DNA from: Nothopassalora personata
Taxonomy: Eukaryota > Ascomycota > Dothideomycetes > Mycosphaerellales > Mycosphaerellaceae
DNA length: 64,000 nt
Reading direction: 5' to 3'
Assembly (NCBI GenBank): GCA_033816765.1
Contig: CM066292.1
Span: 558,001 to 622,000, forward strand
Position numbers and translations under genes: made by a program. Below the pieces are notes generated by a model. It did no database searches. It saw nothing but the letters and a program-made list of their open reading frames with translations, and was not told the DNA's origin. Positions 4,600 to 54,909 of this stretch are shown here, piece by piece (positions within the stretch are counted from its first letter, which is position 1; every line of letters begins with the position of its first letter).

Positions 4600-5480
4600 G
4601 TACTTCATTCTTACTATAGCAATCTCTCGCTATAAAGCCTCCCTTACTATAGGTATAGTAGGTAATACTTCCTTTTAAACTCCTAGGCTTAAACTTACCC
4701 CTATTCCTAATCTTACGACCTTTCTTAGTAACGTTAAGCTCTATTAGCTATAGTCTATAGTATATTATATAAGTCTTAGGCTTATTATTATCGTAAGTAT
4801 TATTAAAGCCTATATTATTTCGATTATTATAGCCTAGTATAAATCTAGCTATTCGGGATACCTTAGAGTTATATTGTCGTTCTAGAGCTCTCTTATAGAG
4901 CTTATTGTTACGATCGATTATAACTCTAACTAGGTCGCCTAAGCTATAATCCTTCTAACTGTCCCTTATTAACTCGTCCTTAACTTACTCCTTTAGTCCT
5001 CTTCGATATATAAATTAAAGTACTTTACTATTCCAATCGGTAACTTACGTATAACTCTAGAATTTATTAGTATATTTAGCCGTAGACATCTTGTAACTTA
5101 AGTACTAGATAATATAAACGGTAGTAGTAATCTCGGTAGAGATCCTAAAGACGCTCTTTATAGTATACTTAAGATAATTATAAGACTTAAAAATTCTATC
5201 GGTCTTGTCTTCGTTTCTATCTAGGTACTTCCTAAGAAATAGTTCAACCTAATACTATACTCGTCCTTAAAGAAAGGTAGTTATAAAGATAGGCTTTAGG
5301 TTATTAGCTATTAGATTTAATATAAAGTACATGTCTAGCTAAGTAGCCTAAGTATTAAACTTGTCTCGATTGTTATAATATAAGTCTAGCTTACTAATCC
5401 TAAGGGTATTGTTACCTATATAAGTAGCTAAGGTATTAATAGTATTATTTACGGTCCAAGGTTATTAGGCTCTACTTACT
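4600..5480 (-). pseudogene. Gypsy A gag relic with zinc knuckle
   Basis: At about 4690-4605 the minus strand reads 'YYTYSKGGFIARDC', a CCHC knuckle (CxxCxxxGHxxxxC) in which two cysteines became tyrosine (tgt to tat) and the histidine is lost. The capsid part upstream is inferred from position and from its homology to 48546-48857, where the same Gag-region sequence recurs next to a telomere tract. Confidence 0.75.
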
Positions 5481-5543
5481 TTACTAACGGCGGGTATTCC
5501 CCGTTAACTCTATTAGTCTCCTATTATAGAGGGCGCTCAAAGC

Positions 5544-13429: not shown

Positions 13430-13760
13430 TGTTAGGAACCGCTGTTCGTTATCCCAACTGGGCTTGGATCTTTGCAGTGATGTCTCTGACTCGTTGAGAA
13501 GGTAGTGGTCCCAAACAGTATATGGTGTATACTTGAAATGAGTTGAGCACGAAGCTCCTATCTACTTGCAAAAGAGCGTCGTCTATATAGTGCCATGTCT
13601 TGGCGCGGTCTGTCCTGCTCTCTCGGTAGAGCACCAAGAGCGCTCTGCTATGAGTCACTCTGCTATGAGTCACACAAGAGCGCCCGCTCATTGGCAGCGC
13701 GTGTCCCTATTCCCAACGAATGAAGTTCTTCCACGTGCACGATCGTACCGGACCGTAACA
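13430..13760. mobile_element. Solo LTR of the gag-only element family
   Basis: 331 bp starting TGTTAGGAACC and ending CCGTAACA, flanked by TCCTG at 13425-13429 and 13761-13765. Both outer parts match the LTRs at 43009-43381 and 45090-45478. In place of the 8-bp minisatellite it carries a different variable block with 'ctctgctatgagtcac' twice. It is unmutated, so it entered copia 1 after most RIP there or was too short to be affected. It is the product of LTR-LTR recombination. Confidence 0.93.
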
Positions 13761-18065: not shown

Positions 18066-18283
18066 TGTCACGATCCAAGCGTGCACCTGGGCAGTAGCCC
18101 AAAACAAGACTGAGTCAACGGTTGCCAAGACTCACGTGACTTTGATTAGTCACCGGCAAACTCTTCAATTCTCAAACATCTCAATTTTACATAGACACAT
18201 GCAATACACAACTCGCTTTTGTCACCTCCTTTCATATGAGCCTATACACCAATAATTACGCAGACAGCCGTCACAACGTGATA
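18066..18283 (+). repeat. Copia 2 5' LTR
   Basis: 218 bp; contains the promoter for the genomic RNA by family analogy. The end is set by the adjoining primer-binding site. Confidence 0.95.
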
Positions 18284-18300
18284 GTTATGAGCCCGACAAG
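18284..18300 (+). other. Copia 2 primer-binding site
   Basis: gttatgagcccgacaag directly follows the LTR. It fits the complement of the anticodon-arm half of initiator tRNA-Met (CAT anticodon visible in reverse), the same strategy as copia 1. Confidence 0.72.
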
Positions 18301-18401
18301 CACTCACTAACATTCGCTACACACACAGGAAGCAACGAGTGAGGAACAAGGGACCCAGGTACCCCCGGAGCAGAGTTTGCATCGTCACCAAAAACACACC
18401 A

Positions 18402-18487
18402 GACTACTGCACAGCAGTGCAGCGGTACGGTACAAAAAAAAACAGCACCAAAAGAAGGACTACTGCACAACAGTGCAGCGGTACGGT
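18402..18487 (+). repeat. Duplicated 30-bp hairpin motif in copia 2 leader
   Basis: Two 30-bp repeats, 18402-18431 and 18458-18487, differ at one base. Each holds the palindrome CTGCAC-(4 nt)-GTGCAG, a stem of at least 6 bp. They lie in the untranslated leader 78-163 nt before the ATG. By analogy with retroelement leaders they could serve RNA dimerisation or packaging; this is inference. Confidence 0.6.
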
Positions 18488-18564
18488 GCACCCCACGGAC
18501 CAGTGAACCTACAGGAACTTTCACTGGGCCCAATCACAATTAGCAAAGGTCACCATCAGCAGTC

Positions 18565-21500
18565 ATGGCCACTACCGAGACACCCGGCACAATCGCTGGA
18601 ACGCCATACGGCACAGTGGTACTCAAGAGTCATGACCAATGGGACAAATTCGATCGTCAGCTTGAGCTCTACGCAGAGTCTCTCAATGTCTGGAAGTATC
18701 TGGATCCTCACCAATACGTAACCGAGCCAACAGAGCCGGTCCACTTAACTTTTGAGGAAATCCAATCACAGTACACTTCAGCAGAGGCCACAACAGCAAA
18801 CAGAGAGCTCATCAAGTTACAGCAAACAGACGCAGACCGCAGGCAACGGATGTATGACATCTTTGCTACTGCCAGGTCCAAGCTCATCACCTACCTCATT
18901 CGAACAACAACAGAGCTAGGCCAAGAACTGATGCATGGGAAGACCACTCTCAGATCCAAGTACCAGGCCCTCAAAGACCAGTACGGCCCTGACGACCTCT
19001 TACGTAAGCGGCAGCTCACACTTGAGCTGTCCAGGCTACAAAAGGCCAGCGCTCGCAGGATCGACGACTGGTGCTCAGACTGGCTGGTACTTCAGACTAA
19101 GATGGTCAAGTGCAAACACGCAGAGTACGAGGATCTCAACAGACACTTCCTCCTCGCCATTCAAAGACAGGCCCCTGCCTACGGCGCCTCTCTGTACAAC
19201 GAGTGGAAGCGTGACAACATGAGCTTGCAAAAGCTCACTGAACGATACCTGGAGTGGATACGCGACACCGCTCCAGCGACAACCAACGGACGGTCAGTCT
19301 TCGCGACCCTGTCCGGAGAGCCCTCAGCAGAGGATGACGCGACGGCACCAGCAGAGGGTGCTGGTCAAAAAGAAGGTAACAACACTCGTGGCAGCAGCCG
19401 CAGTGAAAACAACACACGCGGCAGCAGCCGTAGTGAAAACAACAAGACCCGTGGCAACAACCACGCCGAAAGAAAGGACAAGCCCAGCGGCTGCTGGAAC
19501 ATCACCGGCGAGCCTCAAGACAAGTGTCACAAAAACCTCTACTCATGTGATGTGATTAACCCTAGCAAGCGCCCACCAGTTCACCAACGCACCGAGCAGT
19601 GGAAGAAATACTGGAAACACTTCATCAGCTACTGCGTAGGTGATGATGGTGAGCGACTGCTTCGAGTGCTAAATCGCAATGGACGCAAAGACGAAGAGCG
19701 TGACACGGCCATAGCCGAAACCGAAAGCAAAAGCGCAACAGATGCGTTTGCTGGCCTCACTGTCCTTTCGAGCTCAATCAGCAAATTGAGCGCCAACTTC
19801 AGTGATTGCTGGGTGTATGACAACTGTTCAGACACTCATGTGATCAACCACCATGACCAGCAAGGGGTTAACTTCGTTGCAGAGCGCCTCACCACCTCAC
19901 AGATCCAGGCTGGAACAACAAGCTTTCCAATCACGGCATTGGGGCGTGTTCACATGACAATTGGGGGCTATCCATTCACTTTGTTGGATGTAGCCTACTG
20001 CCCAGGTTTTCATGTGAATGTCATCTCCCATACCCGTATGGAAGCAGCCGGGCTCTGGTGGCACGGCCGCACCAATACCATGTGGCACAACGACACCAAG
20101 TTATTGGACCTGCACAGACCTACAGGTACAATTCCCTTCTTCAAGGTGGTAACACCACCACAATCACCCATTGTCTACCAGTGGCCCACAACCGATGGCC
20201 TGGTACTGCCTAAGGTGACTGAGAAGGTGCGCAATGCACACTTCATCAGCGCCATTGGCAGGGGTGATATCAACAACCAAACAGCAATGCAGCCTGACAG
20301 GGTGTGGGACCCAAGCAAGGACCGGGTTATGCGGGTGAAGGACGTACTCTTCGATGAGACCACGTTCTACGACCCATCTGTATTGACCGCCGGCTACACC
20401 ACTCCCATTGAAAACATAGCAACAGCAGAACCGGCTGAAGAGCCTGAACAATACTACGACCTGTATGTCGCTCACCACGAGCAAGACACAGCACAGGCCG
20501 AGGGGGTGGATCAACAGGCCCATCACCCTCGAAAACACCAATACCTCCTTGGACAAGAGCCACACTGGCCTGAACACCAAGGGGTAAAATTCAACCGACG
20601 TGGCAAAGGGAACAGCAGCAGCCTCAAAAGTGACAGCAGTTTCCAGCCATCTGATTGGCCATCAGCAAATGGTGCCGCAGCAGCGGCTGGTCCTCAAGAC
20701 CAGGCCAAATCAGCAACAATCTCACCGGCCAATGAGAAGCCAGAGAACTCTGACAACATTTCAGAGACACAAGACAAAGACACACAGTCAGAAACAGAAG
20801 CAGACACTGACTACTACAACACACTTGAACAGGAAATGATGGACGCACTCACCGACGAGGATCGTGAGGAGATCACGGGCAACGACGCTCACTCTCACTC
20901 TCACCAGCCGTACCCATTTACCTTCACACCACCAGACGCGCCAAACAACGCGCCCACACCACTCTTCCCTTTGGAGCCTGAGCTCTTCACTGAGGACTCG
21001 TCCATCAACAACAACAACAGCAACACCACGGCCTATGGCAAGAGGCAACGCACCGCCTACTTCCATCACTCTCTTCACAACATCATGGTCGCTAACGTGG
21101 TCATCAGCCAGATGAGGGGCATACGCCCAAGACCTCGTTACCCATATCACCACGAAATCCCTCGAACACGCGATTCGAGCCCACCACGACGCGTCAACAC
21201 CGCCGTCACCTCTATGCACCGCGATGACCTTCCCCCAGAACCTGCCAACTACCGAGCCGCCATGAAACACCGCTTCTCCCAACAGTGGACTGAGGCCATG
21301 GCCAAAGAATTCACCAAAGCAATCTCCACAGGCACGTTCAAATGGGTGACAGAAAAAGAGAAGGATCATGACGCTCAACAAGAGGAGGGACTTCAGCCAT
21401 CACTGCCGCTGAAGTGGGTGTACAAGTACAAACTGGATGAGAATGGAATGCTCAAGAGCTTCAAGGCACGGCTGTGCGCAAGAGGAGACCTGCAAGGCAC

Positions 21501-22908
21501 GCATTTGGACACATACGCCGCCACACCGCCAGCAAGCATGTTTCGCCTCTGCTGTGCTATGGCCGCGAGCTTCGACCTAGAAGCCGAGCAATTCGATGTG
21601 GTCAACGCCTTCTTGAACTCGGACTTGCCATACACCATGTATCTCCAGCCGCCACCAGGCATCAACAGGCCATCCGATGGACACGCACTGAAATTGGTCA
21701 AAGCCCTGTATGGATTGAAGGAGTCCCCTTTGCTGTGGTACAACTCCCTCACCGACACGCTGGCCTCCCTCGGACTGGAACCCCTCTCGGACTCCTCATG
21801 CATCTACCATGATAACAAGGTCATGTTCTTCTTCTATGTGGACGACCTGGTCATGCTCTATCACCGCAAGCACAAGACCCATGCTGCCAACATCAAGCAG
21901 CAGCTGCTTGCCAAGTATGAGATGCATGAGCTTGGCAACCTCACCTGGTTCCTTGGTATCAAAGTGACACGAGACCGGCAAAAGCGCCTGCTGTGGCTCT
22001 CTCAAGAAGACTACATTGAGAAGCTAGCCGCCAAATTCACCATATCCACTAGCGCACGCAAAACCTCCGTGCCAGTGGATCAACACCTTGACTGGACAGT
22101 CCCCAATGGCCACACACCAACCGCCATCGCGATCCTTGCGTATCAACAACGCATAGGATCCCTCAACTTCGCCGCCACGCACACGCGGCCTGACATCGCC
22201 TTTTCCTTGTCCATGCTGTCGCAATATCTGACCAAGCCGACTGAGACACATCTCAAGCTTGCTGATCAGTGCTTGCGATATCTGCTGGAGACCAAAACCC
22301 TTTGCCTTGTGTATGGCGCCAGTAAACACATCACCGGCCTACACAGTCACCCAGAACACCTGGGCAACAACCATGAGTTCTTTGGAGCCTCAGACGCCTC
22401 CTACGGTATGAACACCGATAGGACCAGCTCCACCGGATGGATCTTCATGTTGTTTGGGGGACCAGTGGATTACAAAGCATCCAAACAGGTCACTGTCACC
22501 AAGTCCTCAACAGAGGCTGAGCTACTAGGGCTATCACAAGCCGCCTCAGAGCTCATACAATGGGAGCGTGTTTTTGCTGAATTACACCTTCAGTTCAATC
22601 AACGCACCCACCTTTACTGCGATAACACGCAGACCATCCGCCTCGTCAACCAACAAGGGCAAAAGCTTGACACTAAGCTACGCCACGTTGACATCCACCA
22701 CCACTGGCTCCGACAGCGAGACCAGCGAGGAGATATCGAAATCAGGTATCTCAACACCAACGACATGCCAGCAGACGGGCTTACTAAGCTGCTTCCACCG
22801 CAAAAGCACAAGCACTTTGTAAAGCTCCTTAACATGGCTGAGGAAGGCGTAGACCCACGCTCCTCATTTTCCTCCACCAGCACCTCCCACACCACCCCTG
22901 GGGGGTGA
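18565..22908 (+). CDS. Copia 2 Gag-Pol polyprotein, 1447 aa
   Basis: A single uninterrupted frame. ATG at 18565 has G at -3 and G at +4. Domains: Gag helical region (about 40-240); Q/N/R-rich linker with a tandem 'GSSRSENN' repeat (about 277-300); a cysteine region 'CWNITGEPQDKCHKN' in place of a clear CCHC knuckle; protease-like 'WVYDNCSDTHVIN' (about 413), where the usual glycine after the D is cysteine; a GAG-pre-integrase-like stretch (about 490-530); then the integrase C-terminal/SH3-like part 'DRVMRVKDVLFDETTFYDP' (about 593). The HHCC and DDE core, normally some 250 residues, is not visible between these. RT is strong: 'KWVYKYKLDENG' (about 952), 'QFDVVNAFLNSDL', YVDD at 1091-1094. RNase H acidic residues sit at D1277, E1317 and D1353. 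RT and RNase H look intact; integration in cis is doubtful. Confidence 0.95.
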   Translation: MATTETPGTIAGTPYGTVVLKSHDQWDKFDRQLELYAESLNVWKYLDPHQYVTEPTEPVHLTFEEIQSQYTSAEATTANRELIKLQQTDADRRQRMYDIFATARSKLITYLIRTTTELGQELMHGKTTLRSKYQALKDQYGPDDLLRKRQLTLELSRLQKASARRIDDWCSDWLVLQTKMVKCKHAEYEDLNRHFLLAIQRQAPAYGASLYNEWKRDNMSLQKLTERYLEWIRDTAPATTNGRSVFATLSGEPSAEDDATAPAEGAGQKEGNNTRGSSRSENNTRGSSRSENNKTRGNNHAERKDKPSGCWNITGEPQDKCHKNLYSCDVINPSKRPPVHQRTEQWKKYWKHFISYCVGDDGERLLRVLNRNGRKDEERDTAIAETESKSATDAFAGLTVLSSSISKLSANFSDCWVYDNCSDTHVINHHDQQGVNFVAERLTTSQIQAGTTSFPITALGRVHMTIGGYPFTLLDVAYCPGFHVNVISHTRMEAAGLWWHGRTNTMWHNDTKLLDLHRPTGTIPFFKVVTPPQSPIVYQWPTTDGLVLPKVTEKVRNAHFISAIGRGDINNQTAMQPDRVWDPSKDRVMRVKDVLFDETTFYDPSVLTAGYTTPIENIATAEPAEEPEQYYDLYVAHHEQDTAQAEGVDQQAHHPRKHQYLLGQEPHWPEHQGVKFNRRGKGNSSSLKSDSSFQPSDWPSANGAAAAAGPQDQAKSATISPANEKPENSDNISETQDKDTQSETEADTDYYNTLEQEMMDALTDEDREEITGNDAHSHSHQPYPFTFTPPDAPNNAPTPLFPLEPELFTEDSSINNNNSNTTAYGKRQRTAYFHHSLHNIMVANVVISQMRGIRPRPRYPYHHEIPRTRDSSPPRRVNTAVTSMHRDDLPPEPANYRAAMKHRFSQQWTEAMAKEFTKAISTGTFKWVTEKEKDHDAQQEEGLQPSLPLKWVYKYKLDENGMLKSFKARLCARGDLQGTHLDTYAATPPASMFRLCCAMAASFDLEAEQFDVVNAFLNSDLPYTMYLQPPPGINRPSDGHALKLVKALYGLKESPLLWYNSLTDTLASLGLEPLSDSSCIYHDNKVMFFFYVDDLVMLYHRKHKTHAANIKQQLLAKYEMHELGNLTWFLGIKVTRDRQKRLLWLSQEDYIEKLAAKFTISTSARKTSVPVDQHLDWTVPNGHTPTAIAILAYQQRIGSLNFAATHTRPDIAFSLSMLSQYLTKPTETHLKLADQCLRYLLETKTLCLVYGASKHITGLHSHPEHLGNNHEFFGASDASYGMNTDRTSSTGWIFMLFGGPVDYKASKQVTVTKSSTEAELLGLSQAASELIQWERVFAELHLQFNQRTHLYCDNTQTIRLVNQQGQKLDTKLRHVDIHHHWLRQRDQRGDIEIRYLNTNDMPADGLTKLLPPQKHKHFVKLLNMAEEGVDPRSSFSSTSTSHTTPGG

Positions 22909-22984
22909 TATGGTCCTCAACAAGGGTGCACGCGATCACATGCGAATCAGCTCATTCACCTACAGCGCAAGAGCTGAGGGGGTG
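22909..22984 (+). other. Copia 2 3' untranslated region with polypurine tract
   Basis: aagagctgaggggg at 22969-22982 lies 2 bp before the 3' LTR. This is the expected position for the primer of plus-strand DNA synthesis. Confidence 0.75.
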
Positions 22985-23202
22985 TGTCACGATCCAAGCG
23001 TGCACCTGGGCAGCAGCCCAAAACAAGACTGAGTCAACGGTTGCCAAGACTCACGTGACTTTGATTAGTCACCGGCAAACTCTTCAATTCTCAAACATCT
23101 CAATTTTACATAGACACATGCAATACACAACTCGCTTTTGTCACCTCCTTTCATATGAGCCTATACACCAATAATTACGCAGACAGCCGTCACAACGTGA
23201 TA
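22985..23202 (+). repeat. Copia 2 3' LTR
   Basis: 218 bp, essentially identical to 18066-18283; followed by TSD ATAGC. Confidence 0.95.
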
Positions 23203-43008: not shown

Positions 43009-43381
43009 TGTTAGGAACCGCTGTACGTTATCACAACTCGGGCTTGGATCTTTGCAGGGATGTCTCAATCAGTTATGAAGGTAGTGGTTCCAAACAGTAT
43101 ATGGTGTATACTTAAAATGAGTTGAGCACGAGGCTCCTATCTACTCGTAAAGAAGCGTCGTCTATATAGTGCCATGCCTTGGCGTGCTGCTCGTCTGCTC
43201 GTCTGCTCGTCTGCTCGTCTGCTCGACTGCTCGTCTGCTCGTCTGCTCGTCTGCTCGACTGCTCGTCTGCTCGTCTGCTCGTCTGCTCGTCTGCTCGTCT
43301 GCTCGACTGCTCGTCTGCTCGTCTGCTCGTCTGCTCGTCCAATGAAGTCTTCTTATGCTGTTTCCGTTCCGAACCGTAACA
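43009..43381 (-). repeat. Gag-only element 3' LTR
   Basis: 373 bp; includes a TGCTCGTC minisatellite at 43188-43340 (about 19 units, some TGCTCGAC). A diverged solo copy lies at 13430-13760. Confidence 0.94.
43188..43340. repeat. 8-bp minisatellite in left LTR
   Basis: About 19 units of TGCTCGTC with TGCTCGAC variants. Long Leu/Val/Cys-Ser-Ala-Arg and Glu-Gln-Thr-Ser-Arg frames across it are repeat artefacts. Confidence 0.95.
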
Positions 43382-43478
43382 CCATCCCCCTCCTTAGGAT
43401 CGATGTCCCAGCGATCACGTGTTTCCTCTTACTAATAGTTCCCCGTTTCTCCAATTTCGTAGTCGCAACTTTGTCGCA

Positions 43479-44037
43479 ATGTCTTCCAGACCAGCCATCG
43501 ACAGAAAACGCCGAGTCGCTCGCATTCTTTCCAATCCCCTTGTTCTTTCTCAACCGTGCGATCACTGTTCCCACGTTGGTTCAAGCTGTGTCGTAATCGC
43601 CGATTATTCCCTCATGTCCTGTGTTAAGTGCACACGTCTGGGCAAACCCTGCGTTACCTCCTCCCTGCTTCGACTGGACAAGACCGTTGAAGATCTGTCG
43701 CAAAGGATCGAACAGGACGAGCAACAGGTCGAAGAGTTGCTTTCGAAGATCGAATCACTTCGCCAGCGCATCCGTCGCAACAAGGCGGTGCGAGAGCAGG
43801 CGAACCGAAAGGTTGAGGAGGATGAAGCCCACATGGCTGAGAACACCTCCTTCGACCCCAACGACCCGTCCCTCTCCGATTTCTCAGCCCTTGAAGCGGA
43901 TCTCGACAGGATAGGGGTCACTTCCCCTTTCTCGTGGCCGGATGGCCATCCCTCGTAAGTTGTGGAATCCACCTTTGCCGTTTTGTAGTATTGACTTCTT
44001 TTTCCCTAGGCCATCAAATCAAGAAGCCGCTGTTTGA
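43479..44037 (+). CDS. Zn2Cys6-like/coiled-coil protein encoded antisense in the LTR element
   Basis: Exon 1 43479-43954, intron 43955-44009 (GTAAGT...CTAG, 55 bp), exon 2 44010-44037; without splicing the frame stops at 43958. I chose the ATG at 43479; the frame extends upstream without another ATG. Near residue 26 six cysteines follow CX2CX6CX10CX2CX6C, the spacing of fungal Gal4-type Zn2Cys6 DNA-binding domains, although the usual lysine/arginine-rich loop is weak. A heptad-like segment of about 55 residues follows (LDKTVEDLSQRI..., VEELLSKIESLRQRI), as in dimerising Zn2Cys6 factors. The tail is acidic. It converges on gag, 27 bp away. DNA binding and any role in the element are inference; a captured host fragment is the alternative. 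Confidence 0.7.
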
Positions 44038-44064
44038 TGCCTTGCTGTCCTCAGGTTGTTTCTG

Positions 44065-45063
44065 CTAGGCAGATTTCGAGAAGAAGTTCTCGCATTCCTG
44101 GTATGTATTCTCTTCGCGAATCATTGCGTTGAACTCGCGGCTAACCATGTTCTTTTTCTTGCAGTTCCTTGCAAAATGGCCTTGCTCGCCACATACGTAG
44201 CAGGTGGAACCTTTGCTCTTCAGCCCCCTTCCTGTCCTACGTTCCGTTACGTCCAATTCCATTGGGTCTCCGTAACCATTAGGGTCCTGACTTCTGGCCT
44301 TGAAGCCCCCTCTTCCGCCCGCGGCGGGTCTCTGGTATCCAGGCTGTACGTGTCGGTCGTACCTCAACTCCTGGAGCCTTTCGTCGATCTCCTTTGCTGC
44401 CTTGATCATCGCCCCTAGCGTAACGACGCTGGCGTTTCGGGATAGTTCGGCTTTGACGTTGTCTTTCAGCCCGAGGTAGAACTGCGATCGCAAAGCTGCG
44501 TCGTTCCATTCCAGGTCGGCGGCATATCCTTGGAATTCTGAGGCGTACAGCGCTACAGAAGTAGTCTGTCGAAGTTGTCGGATATGTCGGTCGGCGTATA
44601 CCTCCTCATTTGGTATCCCGTATAGATCATCGAGTTTCGTCTCAAACTCGTCGTAGTCGTGGAAAATTTTTCGAGTTTCCGTTTTCGGTGTTTCTCCCTC
44701 GCCCTGGTTGTGTAGCCAGTCCTTGAGGTATGGTCGGAATCCTCTAGCTGCTTTTCCTCGTAGGAAGGATGCGGCGTACAAGACTTTAGAAGCCTCGCCT
44801 TGAAACTGGTGTGCGTTGAAGTGAAGGTACAACTGAACCTGCAGTTGAAAAGCCTCCAGTTTGTCCTTGGTCCCGTCGAACGTCTCCGGCGTAGACACCT
44901 TAGGTGCACGGTGGTGGTCCAATGGGTTCAGCATACCCATAGGAGTGTTGTTGTTCTTGCTGCTTCCTGTAATCGACATTTCGCTCATTCGTTCCGTGAT
45001 GCCAGTTGACTGTGGCTGTTGTCGTGACGGACTCCGGGTAGCGTCTCTCCCAGACATATGCAA
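44065..45063 (-). CDS. Gag protein of the gag-only LTR element, 332 aa
   Basis: Starts 26 bp inside the 5' LTR (ATG at 45063; a second ATG two codons later is also possible). Residues about 60-235 form a retrotransposon Gag (capsid-like) helical domain ('LEAFQLQVQLYLHFNAHQF', 'RQLRQTTSVALYASEFQGYA', 'FYLGLKDNVKAEL'). A Gly/Arg-rich linker follows, then a perfect CCHC zinc knuckle 'CYVCGEQGHFARNC' near residue 290. The protein would assemble the particle and bind the element RNA. No Pol follows. The open frame and normal codons suggest it may still be functional. Confidence 0.93.
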   Translation of the reverse strand: MHMSGRDATRSPSRQQPQSTGITERMSEMSITGSSKNNNTPMGMLNPLDHHRAPKVSTPETFDGTKDKLEAFQLQVQLYLHFNAHQFQGEASKVLYAASFLRGKAARGFRPYLKDWLHNQGEGETPKTETRKIFHDYDEFETKLDDLYGIPNEEVYADRHIRQLRQTTSVALYASEFQGYAADLEWNDAALRSQFYLGLKDNVKAELSRNASVVTLGAMIKAAKEIDERLQELRYDRHVQPGYQRPAAGGRGGFKARSQDPNGYGDPMELDVTERRTGRGLKSKGSTCYVCGEQGHFARNCKKKNMVSREFNAMIREENTYQECENFFSKSA

Positions 45064-45089
45064 AGGGCCCTGGTGGTGGTGCTCAAAGT

Positions 45090-45478
45090 TGTTAGGAACC
45101 GCTGTACGTTATCACAACTCGGGCTTGGATCTTTGCAGGGATGTCTCAATCAGTTATGAAGGTAGTGGTTCCAAACAGTATATGGTGTATACTTAAAATG
45201 AGTTGAGCACGAGGCTCCTATCTACTCGTAAAGAAGCGTCGTCTATATAGTGCCATGCCTTGGCGTGCTGCTCGTCTGCTCGTCTGCTCGTCTGCTCGTC
45301 TGCTCGTCTGCTCGTCTGCTCGACTGCTCGTCTGCTCGTCTGCTCGTCTGCTCGACTGCTCGTCTGCTCGTCTGCTCGTCTGCTCGTCTGCTCGTCTGCT
45401 CGACTGCTCGTCTGCTCGTCTGCTCGTCTGCTCGTCCAATGAAGTCTTCTTATGCTGTTTCCGTTCCGAACCGTAACA
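45090..45478 (-). repeat. Gag-only element 5' LTR
   Basis: 389 bp; two minisatellite units longer than the other LTR, otherwise the same. Confidence 0.94.
45269..45437. repeat. 8-bp minisatellite in right LTR
   Basis: About 21 units of TGCTCGTC/TGCTCGAC, two more than in the left LTR. Slippage or unequal exchange after insertion explains the difference. Confidence 0.95.
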
Positions 45479-45483
45479 CTATA

Positions 45484-48857: not shown

Positions 48858-48883
48858 TAGGGTTAGGGTTAGGGTTAGGGTTA
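48858..48883 (+). repeat. Short interstitial telomere tract
   Basis: About four TTAGGG units joined to the broken gypsy fragment, in the orientation of a right chromosome end. Confidence 0.95.
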
Positions 48884-49398
48884 AAGTGAATGAGTATACA
48901 CGTGCGAAGAGAGGATAACTGATGAGTACAAGAGTCCTACTACCCTGGTGCGTGGCACGACAGAGCAGTTTCGCCTTGAAGGCTCATCAGGGACTGGTTC
49001 TTGTTCTTATATATATACCACGCGCCAGAGGCCAGGTGTCAGCTTGGTCTGTGCGAATCAAAACATGGCTGGACCAATCATTTCGAATCGCATCATACCA
49101 CGCTGCGCTGACGTGCTGATACTTTCACTGGTGCGTGTCCAATGTGCATTGGTGCATGCAACCGACGGCGCTTACGGTCCAAGAAGATCCGTACTTTCCG
49201 CCCATCCACTTCTTGGCGGCACGTGACCTGAAGGCGACCTCCTCAGAGGGCAGCGATAGCATCATGTCAAGGGCGAGGTGGCGGGTGACTTCTTCAAGGG
49301 TAGGGGCCCGAGCCCTCCCACCTGTACAGGCGTGTCTTTCCAAAACCTCGCCACCGTTACTCGGTGGTCTGTCTCCATCCCAGGGAGAGCGCTGTCGG
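48884..49398. other. Unmutated 515-bp segment between two telomere tracts
   Basis: Normal CpA/TpG content, unlike everything for the preceding 3.4 kb. A TATA-like run (tatatatata) lies at 49008-49019. The longest non-repetitive frame reads leftwards from the array (about 49396 to 49125), including 'LEEVTRHLALDMMLSLPSEE', but I do not recognise it. It starts and ends directly at TTAGGG repeats, so it is either an insertion into telomere repeats or a piece captured during telomere repair. Confidence 0.8.
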
Positions 49399-49577
49399 TT
49401 AGGGTTAGGGTTAGGGTTAGGGTTAGGGTTAGGGTTAGGGTTAGGGTTAGGGTTAGGGTTAGGGTTAGGGTTAGGGTTAGGGTTAGGGTTAGGGTTAGGG
49501 TTAGGGTTAGGGTTAGGGTTAGGGTTAGGGTTAGGGTTAGGGTTAGGGTTAGGGTTAGGGTTAGGGTTAGGGTTAGG
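49399..49577 (+). repeat. Telomere array (TTAGGG)n, right end of left contig
   Basis: About 30 perfect units running into the gap. G-rich strand 5'-3' toward the gap, the orientation of a right chromosome end. Confidence 0.99.
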
Positions 49578-49677
49578 NNNNNNNNNNNNNNNNNNNNNNN
49601 NNNNNNNNNNNNNNNNNNNNNNNNNNNNNNNNNNNNNNNNNNNNNNNNNNNNNNNNNNNNNNNNNNNNNNNNNNNNN
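49578..49677. other. Assembly gap of exactly 100 N
   Basis: A conventional placeholder size, not a measured distance. The apparent proteins with X runs across it are artefacts. Confidence 0.99.
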
Positions 49678-49844
49678 CCTAACCCTAACCCTAACCCTAA
49701 CCCTAACCCTAACCCTAACCCTAACCCTAACCCTAACCCTAACCCTAACCCTAACCCTAACCCTAACCCTAACCCTAACCCTAACCCTAACCCTAACCCT
49801 AACCCTAACCCTAACCCTAACCCTAACCCTAACCCTAACCCTAA
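49678..49844 (-). repeat. Telomere array (CCCTAA)n, left end of right contig
   Basis: About 28 perfect units, oriented as a left chromosome end. The array joins transposon sequence with no spacer. Confidence 0.99.
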
Positions 49845-51595
49845 ACGAGGCCAAACTGACCTTAGCTGTCCAGGCCACGAAACGCGACGCGACAATCACG
49901 AATCGACTTGCTGCAAAGGTATACGACGCGTCTCGAACCACACTAGGGTATCGATTGAATGGACGACCTCCTCGGGGTGACTGCGAGCCCAATTCGAAGA
50001 AGCTTACAGAGCTAGAAGAGAGGGTGATACTTGAGTACATACTCGAGCTGGATCTTAGAGGTTTCCCGCCATCAAAGGCTAGCGTACGAGCAATGGCCGA
50101 TTCATTGCTACAAGAGAAGGGCCTCAAGCCCGCTGGTCTCAATTGGACAGACAGGTTCATTGGGCGGCATCGTGAGCTAAAGGTTCGCATGACACGTGGA
50201 TACGATCGTCAGCGAGCCCTAATGGAAGATCCAGACGTTATCGAGAAGTGGTTCTTGCTTGTGCGTAATATGAAGGAGAAGTATGGCATCCTCGACCAGG
50301 ACACCTACAACTTTGACGAGACAGGGTTTATGATGGGTGTTATTACGTCGCAGAGCGTCGTTACGGGTTCAGAAAGGCGTGGTGGAAAGAGGAAGGTCGT
50401 CCAACAGGGCAACAGAGAATGGGCAACAGTGATTGAGACCATCTGTGCAGACGGAACAGCGCTCCCACCCTACGTCATCCTTGCAGGCAAACAGCACATC
50501 AGTACCTGGTACCAAGACGGCAACTTGGGTCCAGACTGGACAATCGGGCTAACAGAGAACGGCTGGACCAACAATGAATTCGGTATACGGTGGCTGGAGC
50601 ATTTCCAGAAGCATACTGTAGCTCGTACGACTGGGGCATGGAGACTGCTCATTATCGATGGCCACGAGAGCCACAACTCGAAGGCATTCCAGAATCTGTG
50701 CAAGGAATACAAGATCTTGGCCCTATGTATGCCATCGCACGCCTCGCACTTACTCCAGCCATTGGATGTGGGTTGCTATTCGCCTTTGAAGAAGGCATAC
50801 GGTGCTCAGCTCTCGGGCTTGGCACGCCAGCGCATCACTCATATCGACAAAGTAGAGTTCCTACGCGCCTTCCGGGCTGCCCATGACGCTGTATTTAGAC
50901 AGGAGAACATCCTATCGAGCTTCAGAGGCGCTGGTTTGGTTCCATTCAATCCACAGGCAGTGATAGACAAGCTTGATGTTAAGCTACGTACGCCAACGCC
51001 TCCAGCTCCGGACTCTACCCCTTGGGAGTCGAAGACACCACGAACTGCAAAAGAATTCGACTCTCAATCGACACTAGTAACGAACAAAATGCGTGCCCGG
51101 GCAGGTTCATCGCCAAACTCGTTACAGGAAGGGGTGCATCAGCTTGTGAAAGGGAGTAGAGAGATAGCGCATCAGATGGCTCTTATGCGAAGCGAGATCA
51201 GTGAGCTACGCAAGTCTAACGAGGCCCTTACACAGCGGAAAGCACGAAAGCGCAAGTATATTCAGTCTAGAGGGTCTCTAACCTTCGATGAGGCGTCGCA
51301 ATTGATACCTCCAGAGGATACTAGGAGGCAGGAAGTAAGTAGAGAGTCGCTAGATGGTGTTCGGCCAGCACCAAGGCTACGACGCTGCAAGCGATGTGGC
51401 GAGTCGGGGCATAACGTACGCACCTGTCAAGTAGACTTGCTAGATAGCGAAGAATCTGAAGAGGAATTGTCCTCCTAGTAACGATTCTGTAGGATGTCGT
51501 CGTGTTAAGATACCGTCGCAATCAAAGTGGAAGTGGTACAGTTCTTGGCAAAAGTGGCCCGCTCGGTGGTGTGGCCCGCTCGGTGGTGAAGCACG
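49845..51595 (+). mobile_element. Fot1/pogo-type DNA transposon, left end lost at the telomere
   Basis: Contains a transposase gene truncated at its 5' end by the telomere array. At the right end 'gtggcccgctcggtggt' is repeated twice in tandem (about 51554-51587), followed by gaagcacgt and TA, then RIPped DNA. That fits a terminal inverted repeat and a TA target site, but the partner repeat is missing, so it cannot be proven. Unmutated. Confidence 0.85.
49847..51478 (+). CDS. Fot1-type DDE transposase, 5'-truncated
   Basis: The frame is open from the telomere junction. There is no in-frame ATG before the helix-turn-helix region; the first start-like codon (TTG) is at 49955. Numbering from 49955: upstream in frame a psq-type HTH remnant ('LAAKVYDASRTTLGYRLNGR'), then a second CENP-B-type HTH (about 15-80), then the DDE_1 core with D121 ('YNFDETGF'), D235 ('LLIIDGHESH') and D271 ('LLQPLDVGC'). 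This gives DD35D, the Fot1 signature. A coiled coil lies near 395-415 and a CCHC knuckle 'CKRCGESGHNVRTC' near 480. Only the first few residues appear to be missing, but without an ATG, promoter and left terminal repeat it should be inactive. The enzyme would cut and paste its element at TA sites in the nucleus. Confidence 0.92.
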   Translation, partial: EAKLTLAVQATKRDATITNRLAAKVYDASRTTLGYRLNGRPPRGDCEPNSKKLTELEERVILEYILELDLRGFPPSKASVRAMADSLLQEKGLKPAGLNWTDRFIGRHRELKVRMTRGYDRQRALMEDPDVIEKWFLLVRNMKEKYGILDQDTYNFDETGFMMGVITSQSVVTGSERRGGKRKVVQQGNREWATVIETICADGTALPPYVILAGKQHISTWYQDGNLGPDWTIGLTENGWTNNEFGIRWLEHFQKHTVARTTGAWRLLIIDGHESHNSKAFQNLCKEYKILALCMPSHASHLLQPLDVGCYSPLKKAYGAQLSGLARQRITHIDKVEFLRAFRAAHDAVFRQENILSSFRGAGLVPFNPQAVIDKLDVKLRTPTPPAPDSTPWESKTPRTAKEFDSQSTLVTNKMRARAGSSPNSLQEGVHQLVKGSREIAHQMALMRSEISELRKSNEALTQRKARKRKYIQSRGSLTFDEASQLIPPEDTRRQEVSRESLDGVRPAPRLRRCKRCGESGHNVRTCQVDLLDSEESEEELSS

Positions 51596-51597
51596 TT

Positions 51598-51984: not shown

Positions 51985-52857
51985 CTAACCGTATTGTAAT
52001 CTACTTATGTCGACTAATGCTACTATGTCCTCCTCACCTATAGTCTCGTAGACGATCGGCGTCTCTTGCTGCGCGTAAAGGGCTTCGCCCTTAGTCGTCC
52101 GTACATACGTATAGTGCGACCTAGGCAGGGCTGGAATCGGGCGGGAGGCGCTGCCGCTGTCGAAGCGGCTGCGATATTCTTCGTGTGTAGTGTTGACCGA
52201 CTTGAGGCTCCTATCTTCCCGTTGAGGCTTAGACGTAGCACTGAGCGTCATGTTCGATCCGGAAGGCTCGGACTTGCTAATGGCGCTGCTTTGGTATGGT
52301 CGCTGCTGGTGCTTGTCCGGTCCGTGCTGGCCGCGGACCTGCTCTTTGGCGGCACATGTGTGCTTGTGCTGGGCCAACCGCCTCCTCTTGAAAGCCTTGA
52401 TGCTATGACGACAGGAAGTCTGCTCGGGATGGTGGTCATCTAAAGCCCTCCACTTCCTCTTGCGTCCTGCTAGCGACGTAGGACTGTGCTTAACAGCGTG
52501 CTGGTAGTGCTCATGCTCGTCCGGCAGCTGCGCTGGCGTATGTGGTGTTGAAAGTCTCGATGACCCGTCATCGGTCAGGTCGTCGATGTCGGATGCATCG
52601 CGATTGCGACCGAGCGTCGTGGCCGCCGAAGAGGCGGATGGCGGGCCATCGGCGGCGGCGGCGGTGATAATAGTGGGGGTGATTGGGGCCGTTCTGCTCG
52701 GAGCGAAACACTTTGGTTGGCGCAAAGGATCGTCTTCAGGCGTCTGCAAGAGAGTGTTAAGGAGGGCGCACACGTCGCGAAGCGTCTTGCTGGTTCGAAA
52801 GTCGGCCAGCGTCGTCGCATTCCGCGCCTCGACCTCGCTGGGCGACGCGAGAGACAT
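51985..52857 (-). CDS. Unknown basic, disordered-looking protein, 290 aa
   Basis: I chose the ATG at 52857 ('MSLASPSEVEARNA'). The frame runs 59 codons further upstream through a hexanucleotide repeat that gives Pro-Ser runs, which looks like promoter DNA. A short N-terminal helix-like stretch ('TLADFRTSKTLRDVCALLNTL', listed as a region) is followed by low-complexity Ser/Thr/Pro/Ala. A basic patch near 150-190 ('GRKRKW', 'KAFKRRRLAQHK') resembles a nuclear localisation signal. The ordered C terminus is 'YETIGEEDIVALVDISRLQYG'. No known domain was recognised. It is divergent from the FHA-kinase gene, 230 bp apart, so the two may share a promoter. The sequence is unmutated although RIPped DNA begins right after the stop. 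Confidence 0.72.
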   Translation of the reverse strand: MSLASPSEVEARNATTLADFRTSKTLRDVCALLNTLLQTPEDDPLRQPKCFAPSRTAPITPTIITAAAADGPPSASSAATTLGRNRDASDIDDLTDDGSSRLSTPHTPAQLPDEHEHYQHAVKHSPTSLAGRKRKWRALDDHHPEQTSCRHSIKAFKRRRLAQHKHTCAAKEQVRGQHGPDKHQQRPYQSSAISKSEPSGSNMTLSATSKPQREDRSLKSVNTTHEEYRSRFDSGSASRPIPALPRSHYTYVRTTKGEALYAQQETPIVYETIGEEDIVALVDISRLQYG

Positions 52858-52925
52858 TTGGGTGATTGAATTGTGTCTGCCGTCCTCTGCAGTGCGTGCG
52901 ATGTATTGTGTGGTTCTTGCTGACG

Positions 52926-52958
<33 letters not shown>

Positions 52959-53087
52959 GACGACCTTGTTTCTCCCCGCTTACGTCACGGCTGAGGGCCA
53001 CGTGATGTACATGTACCTGCACACAATGCGGCACGTCTCACCGCCATATCAACATCTACTTCCTATATTCCTATTCTACCCGCTACA
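52858..53087. promoter_or_regulatory. Divergent intergenic region
   Basis: 230 bp between two start codons on opposite strands, containing the GGTGAG array. A bidirectional promoter is inferred from layout; no specific factor site was identified. Confidence 0.5.
52925..52959 (+). repeat. (GGTGAG)n hexanucleotide array
   Basis: Five perfect units plus a partial one between the divergent genes. It resembles, but is not, the telomere repeat. Confidence 0.93.
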
Positions 53088-54909
53088 ATGCCGCGATCCC
53101 CATACGCAGCTCAACCTCTAAACCGTTCGTTTGCGTCCGACGACACTAATGTGTTGCAAGCAACCTGGACGTTCTGGCCGAATCCGCCCTCCGGTCATGA
53201 CTTCTGTCGCCTCATTCCCGACTCTGACGCCTCTAAAGCGGCCTTCCAGCAGCAGGTCAAACATCACCTAGAACGCAGAGAAAAAGGCAAGCTGTTGTTC
53301 TGCGATCGCTTCCTCCACTATGAGTACACTACACCCGAGCTGGCCTTTCCAGCGCCCATCGAGTACTCATCAGCGAGCGACTTGGGGGACGGTGCGGCAC
53401 CTGTCGCTATCCTTGACAAAGCTGCTCCTAACACTATCGTGCCCACCAGCCTGCCTCCTGCCACTGAGATGTCCGGTGACCCTTGCGTTACTGGGTACTA
53501 CCGCCTCAATATGGCATCACCTGCCCCCCAAAACCATGGTATTGGCTGGCGACTTGGCGCTGGTCGAAGTAGCGAACCGGGTATCGATATCGAGTTTCGT
53601 CTGGCATCTCGCAAGTCTGGCCAGGGCCTTCACGGTATTCACGGTCGTTTGAAACGCTCGTTGGCTTCCGGAGCGCTCCTGGCCATCTCCGACACTCATA
53701 GGATCCGCGTGGGCGATGACTGGCTCCAGGGAGTCTCGAATGCGCCAAGTGAGCGAACTTTGATGAATGGCTCGACGCTAGACATTGCTGGCTACCTATA
53801 CAGAGTCGAATACACTGACATTTCCCCGTCTCTTGATAGAAAGCAGCTAACTCAAGTAGCCGCTGATCTGGACGTGGCGGTTGGAGCAGTATTGCTTACG
53901 CCAACGCCTGCAAATGATGCCTCAGGCGTAGTCACCACCCGGGACTACATTATGCATCCAGCCTTTAGTAGCGGCGCTTCTGCCACAGTCTTCTATGCCG
54001 TCTCTCGGGAAAGCGGAGAAGTGTATGCCGCTAAGAAGGTGACTGCGCAGCATTCAGGTCATGTTCAAATGGTCAAGAAGGAAGTTGCACTTCTTAAAGA
54101 TCTGCAGCATGTAAGTCACGCCTCCAACATGTTACACCAGTAATTACAGCCCTTGTACTAACAGCATGATTCAGCCACATATCATCAAACTCGTCGACGT
54201 TTCATCGTCCGCCTTTGAACACCACGACTGCCCTTCAAGCGCAATATCGGAGCATCTAATGATGCTGCAACCCGCCCTTACCATGAACTTACTCCAGTAC
54301 AGCAAGCAGATCGTCGACGACTCTGGCGGCAGAATCGCGCGTGAGCAACGAACCCAGGCCAGCCTCCTACTTCTCTCCCAAATCGGACACGCCTGTGACT
54401 ACCTTCACAGACGGGGTGTAATGCACCGCGACATCAAGCCCGACAATATTGGTGTATCTATCAGATCTTCCAATGGCCTCGATTTCATCCTCCTAGATTT
54501 TGGTCACGCCACTAAGAAAGCCAGGAGCCAGGACCACTTGAAAGGTACGATGCGCTATCTCGCACCCGAAATCATGGACTTGAAGAACGGGAAGACAGTA
54601 ACACCGTACGACCACGCTGTGGATGTATGGGCCCTTGGTCTTTCTTCGCTCGAGCTTCTTCACGGCATACAGATTAGGGATGTCGCGCATGCGATGAATC
54701 TCGCGGTAGAGGTGCGAAGAAGTTCCCAGTCACGACCTAGTACTCGCGAACTTGGAGAGCACGACGATCTCGAGCGCTCTGCGTTGAGATTGCATGCGGA
54801 CATGTTACAGCAGGCTGTAACGAAGCGGATTAAGATAGATGTTGTTATTCAAAGGGCTAAACAAGGTCTAGATCTACTTCCGTTAGATGCGACTCCTCTT
54901 AGAACGTAG
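53088..54909 (+). CDS. FHA-like/serine-threonine protein kinase, 585 aa, one intron
   Basis: Exons 53088-54110 and 54175-54909. Residues about 138-244 look like a forkhead-associated (phosphothreonine-binding) domain ('WRLGAGRSSEPGIDIEF', 'GIHGRLKR', 'RTLMNGSTLDIAGYLYRVEY'), though the core is diverged. The kinase domain spans about 285-530: loop 'FSSGASATVF', lysine in 'YAAKK' (K316), helix-C glutamate E332, HRD at 425-427 with 'IKPDN', DFG at 449-451, APE at 471-473, and 'DHAVDVWALGL'. All catalytic residues are present, so it should be active. FHA plus kinase recalls Chk2/Rad53-type checkpoint kinases, but orthology is not claimed. The stop lies at the edge of RIPped DNA, so the original C terminus may have been longer. 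Confidence 0.9.
54111..54174 (+). other. Spliceosomal intron in the kinase gene
   Basis: 64 bp: donor GTAAGT, branch site TACTAAC at 54156-54162, acceptor TTCAG. Splicing joins 'KDLQH' to 'PHIIKL' in phase 0, restoring the classic kinase HPHIIKL block. Confidence 0.95.

Follow-up and report, generated by a model that had tools for sequence, protein, structure and literature searches.

Two telomere-capped chromosome ends joined across a 100-N spacer in a fungal genome assembly: a very probable scaffolding artefact between ends apparently rebuilt in mobile elements

Two telomere arrays facing each other inside a contig raise the question of whether two chromosomes have fused or whether two separate ends have been written side by side during assembly. 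The window, that is the whole stretch of 64,000 nucleotides that was analysed, corresponds to C6:558001-622000 of an assembly that comprises 40 contigs and 54,548,678 bases (positions given with a contig number refer to the assembly, the others to the window). On the plus strand, 30.2 TTAGGG units (100% match) at 49397-49577 form the terminal array of the left piece (C6:1-607577); they run into exactly 100 N at 49578-49677, the sole N run in the window and putatively the placeholder of a scaffolder, and are followed on the minus strand by 27.8 CCCTAA units (100% match) at 49678-49844, the terminal array of the right piece (C6:607678-1093924). A sequence-only reading had described this passage from TTAGGG through exactly 100 N to CCCTAA at 49399-49844, which is correct within 2 bases. 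It had also taken each array to be oriented as the end of its own chromosome, and indeed both G-rich strands run towards the gap, so that each array is the DNA end of its own side. The telomere-gap-telomere pattern appeared in 0 of 100 dinucleotide shuffles, and a chance origin is thereby ruled out. No subtelomere common to the two flanks was found, since they had no mutual match at E 1e-8 in a comparison of 31 chromosome ends (1.3-2.1 kb each).

The arrays of the whole assembly were listed using three patterns, a join pattern and reads of 500 bases at 17 contig starts or ends. This inventory is complete for arrays of at least four units and accounts for all 524 forward and 366 reverse pattern matches. 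It contains 33 long telomere arrays of 25-36 units, 14 of them at contig ends (the ends of C2, C4, C5, C6, C8 and C9 and the starts of C3, C4, C5, C8, C12, C13, C25 and C38) and 19 internal: six on C6, four on C7, two each on C1, C5 and C10 and one each on C2, C9 and C11. The array at C6:1625056, which one shortened unit splits into 4 + 29 units, was counted as one array of 33 units. An N run adjoins every one of the 19 internal arrays, with exactly 100 N at 18 of them, and no internal array of at least four units and of terminal length stands without a gap (0/19). Ten of the 19 belong to five telomere-100N-telomere joins, at C6:607578, C6:1093925, C6:1624956, C7:3895332 and C10:1629225. At the other nine telomere-bearing gaps (for example C5:4973793 and C1:556407) a telomere is seen on one side only; eight of them have non-telomeric sequence across the exact 100 N, and the ninth, on C11, was read on its near side. 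Of the 14 telomere-bearing gaps, 13 thus have a spacer of exactly 100 N, the exception being C11, where the array at C11:718473 runs into at least 1309 N, which may be a larger, sized gap or else sequence that was withheld. Internal arrays measure 27-36 units (mean 30.2, n=19) and contig-end arrays 25-36 units (mean 29.8, n=14); the lengths do not differ (Mann-Whitney p=0.96), suggesting that the internal arrays are real termini and not decaying relics.

These data bear directly on a true fusion. A real end-to-end fusion of chromosomes would be expected to leave arrays placed head to head, and its long inverted telomere core, being hard to assemble as a matter of general knowledge, might have been left unassembled and written as a gap. 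A continuous inverted telomere core was not seen at any of the five joins, each of which has 100 N between its arrays; such a core could hide in the gap. However, five joins and nine one-sided telomere gaps occur in a single assembly, 13 of these 14 with an identical spacer, and the one-sided gaps are left unexplained by end-to-end fusion. The arrays are moreover perfect and of the same length as those at contig ends, and C6 would have to be four fused chromosomes, three of whose four pieces bear a telomere at both ends. We therefore regard fusion as extremely improbable. The sequence-only reading had already judged it less likely than the work of a scaffolder merging two finished ends; both parts of that judgement are strengthened, the former by the one-sided gaps and the uniform spacer, the latter by five identical joins and by the N run at all internal arrays.

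A placeholder that is uniform at the internal telomeres points to a scaffolder rather than to a set of natural fusions, and we consider it nearly certain, from the assembly sequence, that software put two separate chromosome ends together with a fixed 100-N spacer. A scaffolding program would have strung several finished or half-finished contigs into the pseudochromosome C6, with the left contig ending in its own telomere at C6:607577 and the right contig opening with its own telomere at C6:607678. The likeness to known misjoins of telomere-capped contigs is close, since the fixed-length N spacer, the inward-facing arrays and the repetition across the assembly all match and no important difference appears, except that 19 internal telomere arrays are many for one assembly. 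As for the type of program, 100 N is the default gap of RagTag. The 13 scaffolds C1-C13, each of at least 0.93 Mb, total 53.64 Mb, and the other 27 contigs together make up 0.90 Mb. The large scaffolds are out of size order, C5 and C6 being larger than C2-C4; without its three front pieces C6 would be reduced to 4.08 Mb, and C5 would measure 3.75 Mb if counted only as far as its first internal telomere, which is nearer to a descending order. Isolates of Fulvia fulva have 13 core chromosomes in common (PMC10823647). This agreement in number and the order of scaffold sizes suggest that the program was probably a reference-guided scaffolder.

At the gap at C5:3752945, a partial 4-coumarate-CoA ligase frame is 94% identical (301/320) to that of Fulvia fulva, the next named match being Lecanosticta acicola at 82%, so that the source fungus is, judged from this protein comparison, near F. 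fulva but probably a different species; going by the lineage of F. fulva, it would belong to Mycosphaerellaceae. Cut at its internal telomeres, C6 falls into at least four pieces. The first (C6:1-607577) has a telomere at its right end. The second (C6:607678-1093924, 486,247 bp) and the third (C6:1094025-1624955, 530,931 bp) each begin with a CCCTAA array, finish with a TTAGGG array and are bounded on both sides by 100-N gaps, and the same holds for a piece of C7 (C7:3243645-3895331, 651,687 bp). The fourth (C6:1625056-5701418, 4,076,363 bp) has telomeres at both ends. The pieces of 486, 531 and 652 kb are known from their edges (for the 486-kb piece, the ends and 701 bases), and inner gaps are possible; the 486-kb piece is a candidate free mini-chromosome. 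Cladosporium fulvum (Fulvia fulva) possesses accessory mini-chromosomes, such as Chr14 of 460 kb (PMC9453070). The three pieces would be comparable to these, with two telomeres each and in a related fungus, to judge by the piece edges in one genome. Two further observations concern the layout of the scaffolds. A 52-kb piece at C7:3191303-3243544 lies between two telomere-bearing gaps and has no array on its own two edges. The ends of C11 and C13 carry the same tandem repeat on opposite strands; the two may be one chromosome, or the repeat may be a common satellite.

If the join is artificial, the ends themselves might also be partly so. In practice contig ends have been extended to the telomere with merged local assemblies (PMC9453070), and telomere patching or contig extension could likewise have added arrays here to contigs that do not truly end at those points; the fairly uniform lengths of 25-36 units would suit this. 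On the other hand, both the phase and the point of attachment vary among ends, and the place where the arrays are attached is not what would be expected from a software patch. We compared 31 of the 33 ends, leaving out the start of C4 and C5:4973613, and at 12 or more of the 31 the telomere sits partway through a repeat, another copy of which runs on past that point; 12 is a minimum, because the comparison drew on no references beyond the other ends and a single transposon copy. These junctions are the end of C4, C5:3752764, C6:607827, C6:1094188, C6:1625241, C7:3895595, the end of C8, the end of C9, C10:1629000, C10:1629325, C11:718258 and the start of C12. The numbers of bases that repeat and telomere have in common at the 12 junctions are 3, 0, 2, 6, 2, 2, 1, 1, 1, 1, 3 and 0, the value of 6 being due to a TTAGGG that is part of the repeat. 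The mean is 1.83 with at least one base at 10 of 12, against 0.72 and 5.1 of 12 for a null of random cut points and phases (P 0.010 for the mean and 0.005 for the count); it should be noted that C5:3752764 and the end of C9 are each other's reference and that three alignments are only 84-88% identical. This microhomology is above that of random joining, and we consider patching very unlikely, if less so than fusion. The join is almost certainly an artefact, to be cut, between ends that are themselves real and ordinary in kind.

Telomerase can be seeded by short complementarity, as a general mechanism, and the excess of microhomology fits healing of this kind, as far as junction sequences can tell. 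Each end in the window would then have been made by telomerase. De novo telomere formation has been described at chromosome breaks in kmt1 mutants of Zymoseptoria tritici (PMC6510446) and, in Magnaporthe oryzae, at truncated MoTeR elements (PMC7367193). As in both of these species, TTAGGG repeats appear to have been added to broken ends, many of them within repeats or close by, the difference being that here the process is deduced from a static assembly and not from observed events. Z. tritici belongs to the same family as the source fungus.

The right end of the join may be a case of such healing. Immediately inboard of its array, at 49845-51596 on the plus strand, lies a 5'-truncated DNA transposon of the pogo/Fot type, a group that we take to belong to the Tc1/mariner superfamily. 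It encodes the domains DDE_1 (PF03184, 6.5e-30) and HTH_Tnp_Tc5 (PF03221, a CENP-B/Tc5-type DNA-binding domain, 1.8e-09); the nearest protein to this transposase is 93% identical, and the matches that name an organism are at 40-54% among the 120 matches listed. The 3' end and its flanking TA are present, and the first 114 of 1866 bp, with the 5' terminal inverted repeat and the start codon, are absent, with the telomere in their place; the lost sequence and the telomere have two bases in common at the cut. Searching the assembly, we found at least 28 copies over the full query including that of the window (at least 27 others), and one partial copy. All 19 other copies that were read, out of the 27, span 1866 bp and are bordered by TA on both sides. 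In the single copy used for comparison, the inverted repeats agree fully over their first 70 bp; the window copy keeps the 3' one only. The scores of fifteen other copies fall within 4 bits of that of the window copy itself (2983 vs 2987), suggesting that the insertion, and hence the break, is young. We infer that the right end is a chromosome end healed inside a recently active transposon, to whose broken sequence telomerase would have added telomere repeats. About 2 kb from the right telomere, at 51985-54909, there is a GC-rich island (0.57 in the bin starting at 52001) with long frames. One of them, a protein kinase frame at 54.1-54.9 kb, has only distant matches, the best that names a fungus being Teratosphaeria destructans (47% identity over 47% of the query).

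At the left end, a second, short interstitial tract of 4.3 units at 48858-48883 (plus strand), omitted from the sequence-only reading, starts where an AT-rich repeat breaks off, the other copy of this repeat being at 5214-5502 (78% identical); the tract is probably a former chromosome end. Between it and the terminal array, at 48884-49396 on the minus strand, lies an element of 513 bp (GC 0.55), so that the order from the terminal array inward is element, tract and AT-rich repeat. Three matches to the element occur in the assembly: that of the window (C6:606884-607396), a copy at C1:7119459-7119971 (98%) and one at C11:718055-718264 (99%) comprising the inner 210 bp only. All three lie at chromosome ends, flanked by a short tract on the inner side and by a long array on the outer; the inner tract has 4.3, 5 and about 1.5 units (the last on C11), and what lies inboard of it is different at each of the three ends. 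The outer side of the C11 copy is cut, with the telomere directly at the cut and one T in common, as seen in this one copy. Reading inward from the telomere, the minus strand holds an open frame of 90 residues (49125-49397). It gave no Pfam match at a maximum E of 10, with filters dropping most matches above 0.1, and in the genome it is matched by the window copy and the C1 copy only, the latter with a stop. No reverse-transcriptase domain was found in the element, and no autonomous partner in the assembly. At the left end, a break in an old repeat would have been healed by a telomere, followed by the addition of the 513-bp element and then by a new cap.

These features recall two telomere-targeted families. 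MoTeR elements of M. oryzae have their 5' end outward and are associated with interstitial telomeres, and one truncation was healed from a single T (PMC7367193), a case that the C11 end would resemble; FoTeR elements of Fusarium oxysporum carry 3-7 repeats at the 3' end, and truncated copies are commoner than full ones (PMC12857005). The 513-bp element is like both in occurring at chromosome ends only, with telomere repeats on both sides and few on the inner side, and in its outer-side truncation, seen in the C11 copy only. It differs from them in its size of only 513 bp, in having no reverse-transcriptase domain and in having no autonomous partner in this assembly. Since the reverse transcriptase is their defining feature, we do not count the element among the MoTeRs or FoTeRs. 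No MoTeR/FoTeR-like element in Dothideomycetes came up in our literature search or in a word search of the FoTeR paper (PMC12857005).

The element and its inner tract may instead have been spread by end-to-end recombination, i.e. break-induced copying primed by the tract, and not by transposition of its own. The two full copies end at the same outer boundary with 98% identity, which together with the missing reverse-transcriptase domain speaks for recombination; that the inboard sequences differ at the three ends and that the tract varies, as happens at targeted insertions, speaks against it, although tract-primed copying could mimic this. We give recombination slightly less than an even chance, about as likely as transposition. 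The wider picture would be one in which chromosome ends are renewed largely by telomerase healing in transposons, a MoTeR/FoTeR-like telomere-targeting element survives as short remnants in Dothideomycetes, the left end went through two rounds, and at least three telomere-to-telomere mini-chromosomes are hidden in the scaffolds. Taken jointly, these proposals are tentative and rather less likely than not.

Other elements were noted in the window. At 18066-23202 there is an intact-looking LTR retrotransposon of the Copia type, with a frame of 1454 residues containing RVT_2; its LTRs of 218 bp are 99.5% identical and the element is young. A short LTR element at 43009-45479 carries a minus-strand gag frame (Retrotrans_gag, zf-CCHC) and direct repeats of about 390 bp, 96% identical, each with 19-21 copies of the octamer CTGCTCGT; an LTR-like remnant is present at 13430-13623. 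The long AT-rich stretches of the window have a GC of about 0.31-0.37 per 2 kb and are RIP-like by appearance alone. Among RNA genes, no family reached the gathering score in the window and 5.8S rRNA had no match in the assembly. Elsewhere, at C5:1-1660, a long low-complexity purine/pyrimidine stretch lies inboard of the start telomere, in which this end differs from the others that were seen.

Any synteny, gene order or number of chromosomes taken from this assembly is wrong at no fewer than five telomere-gap-telomere joins on C6, C7 and C10, and probably at the nine other telomere-bearing gaps too. The 33 long arrays imply 17 chromosomes or more, whereas the scaffolds of at least 0.93 Mb number 13. 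Cutting at the internal telomeres yields candidate mini-chromosomes of 0.49-0.65 Mb. The flanks of the join, for their part, preserve a modest natural trace of the rebuilding of chromosome ends inside mobile elements.
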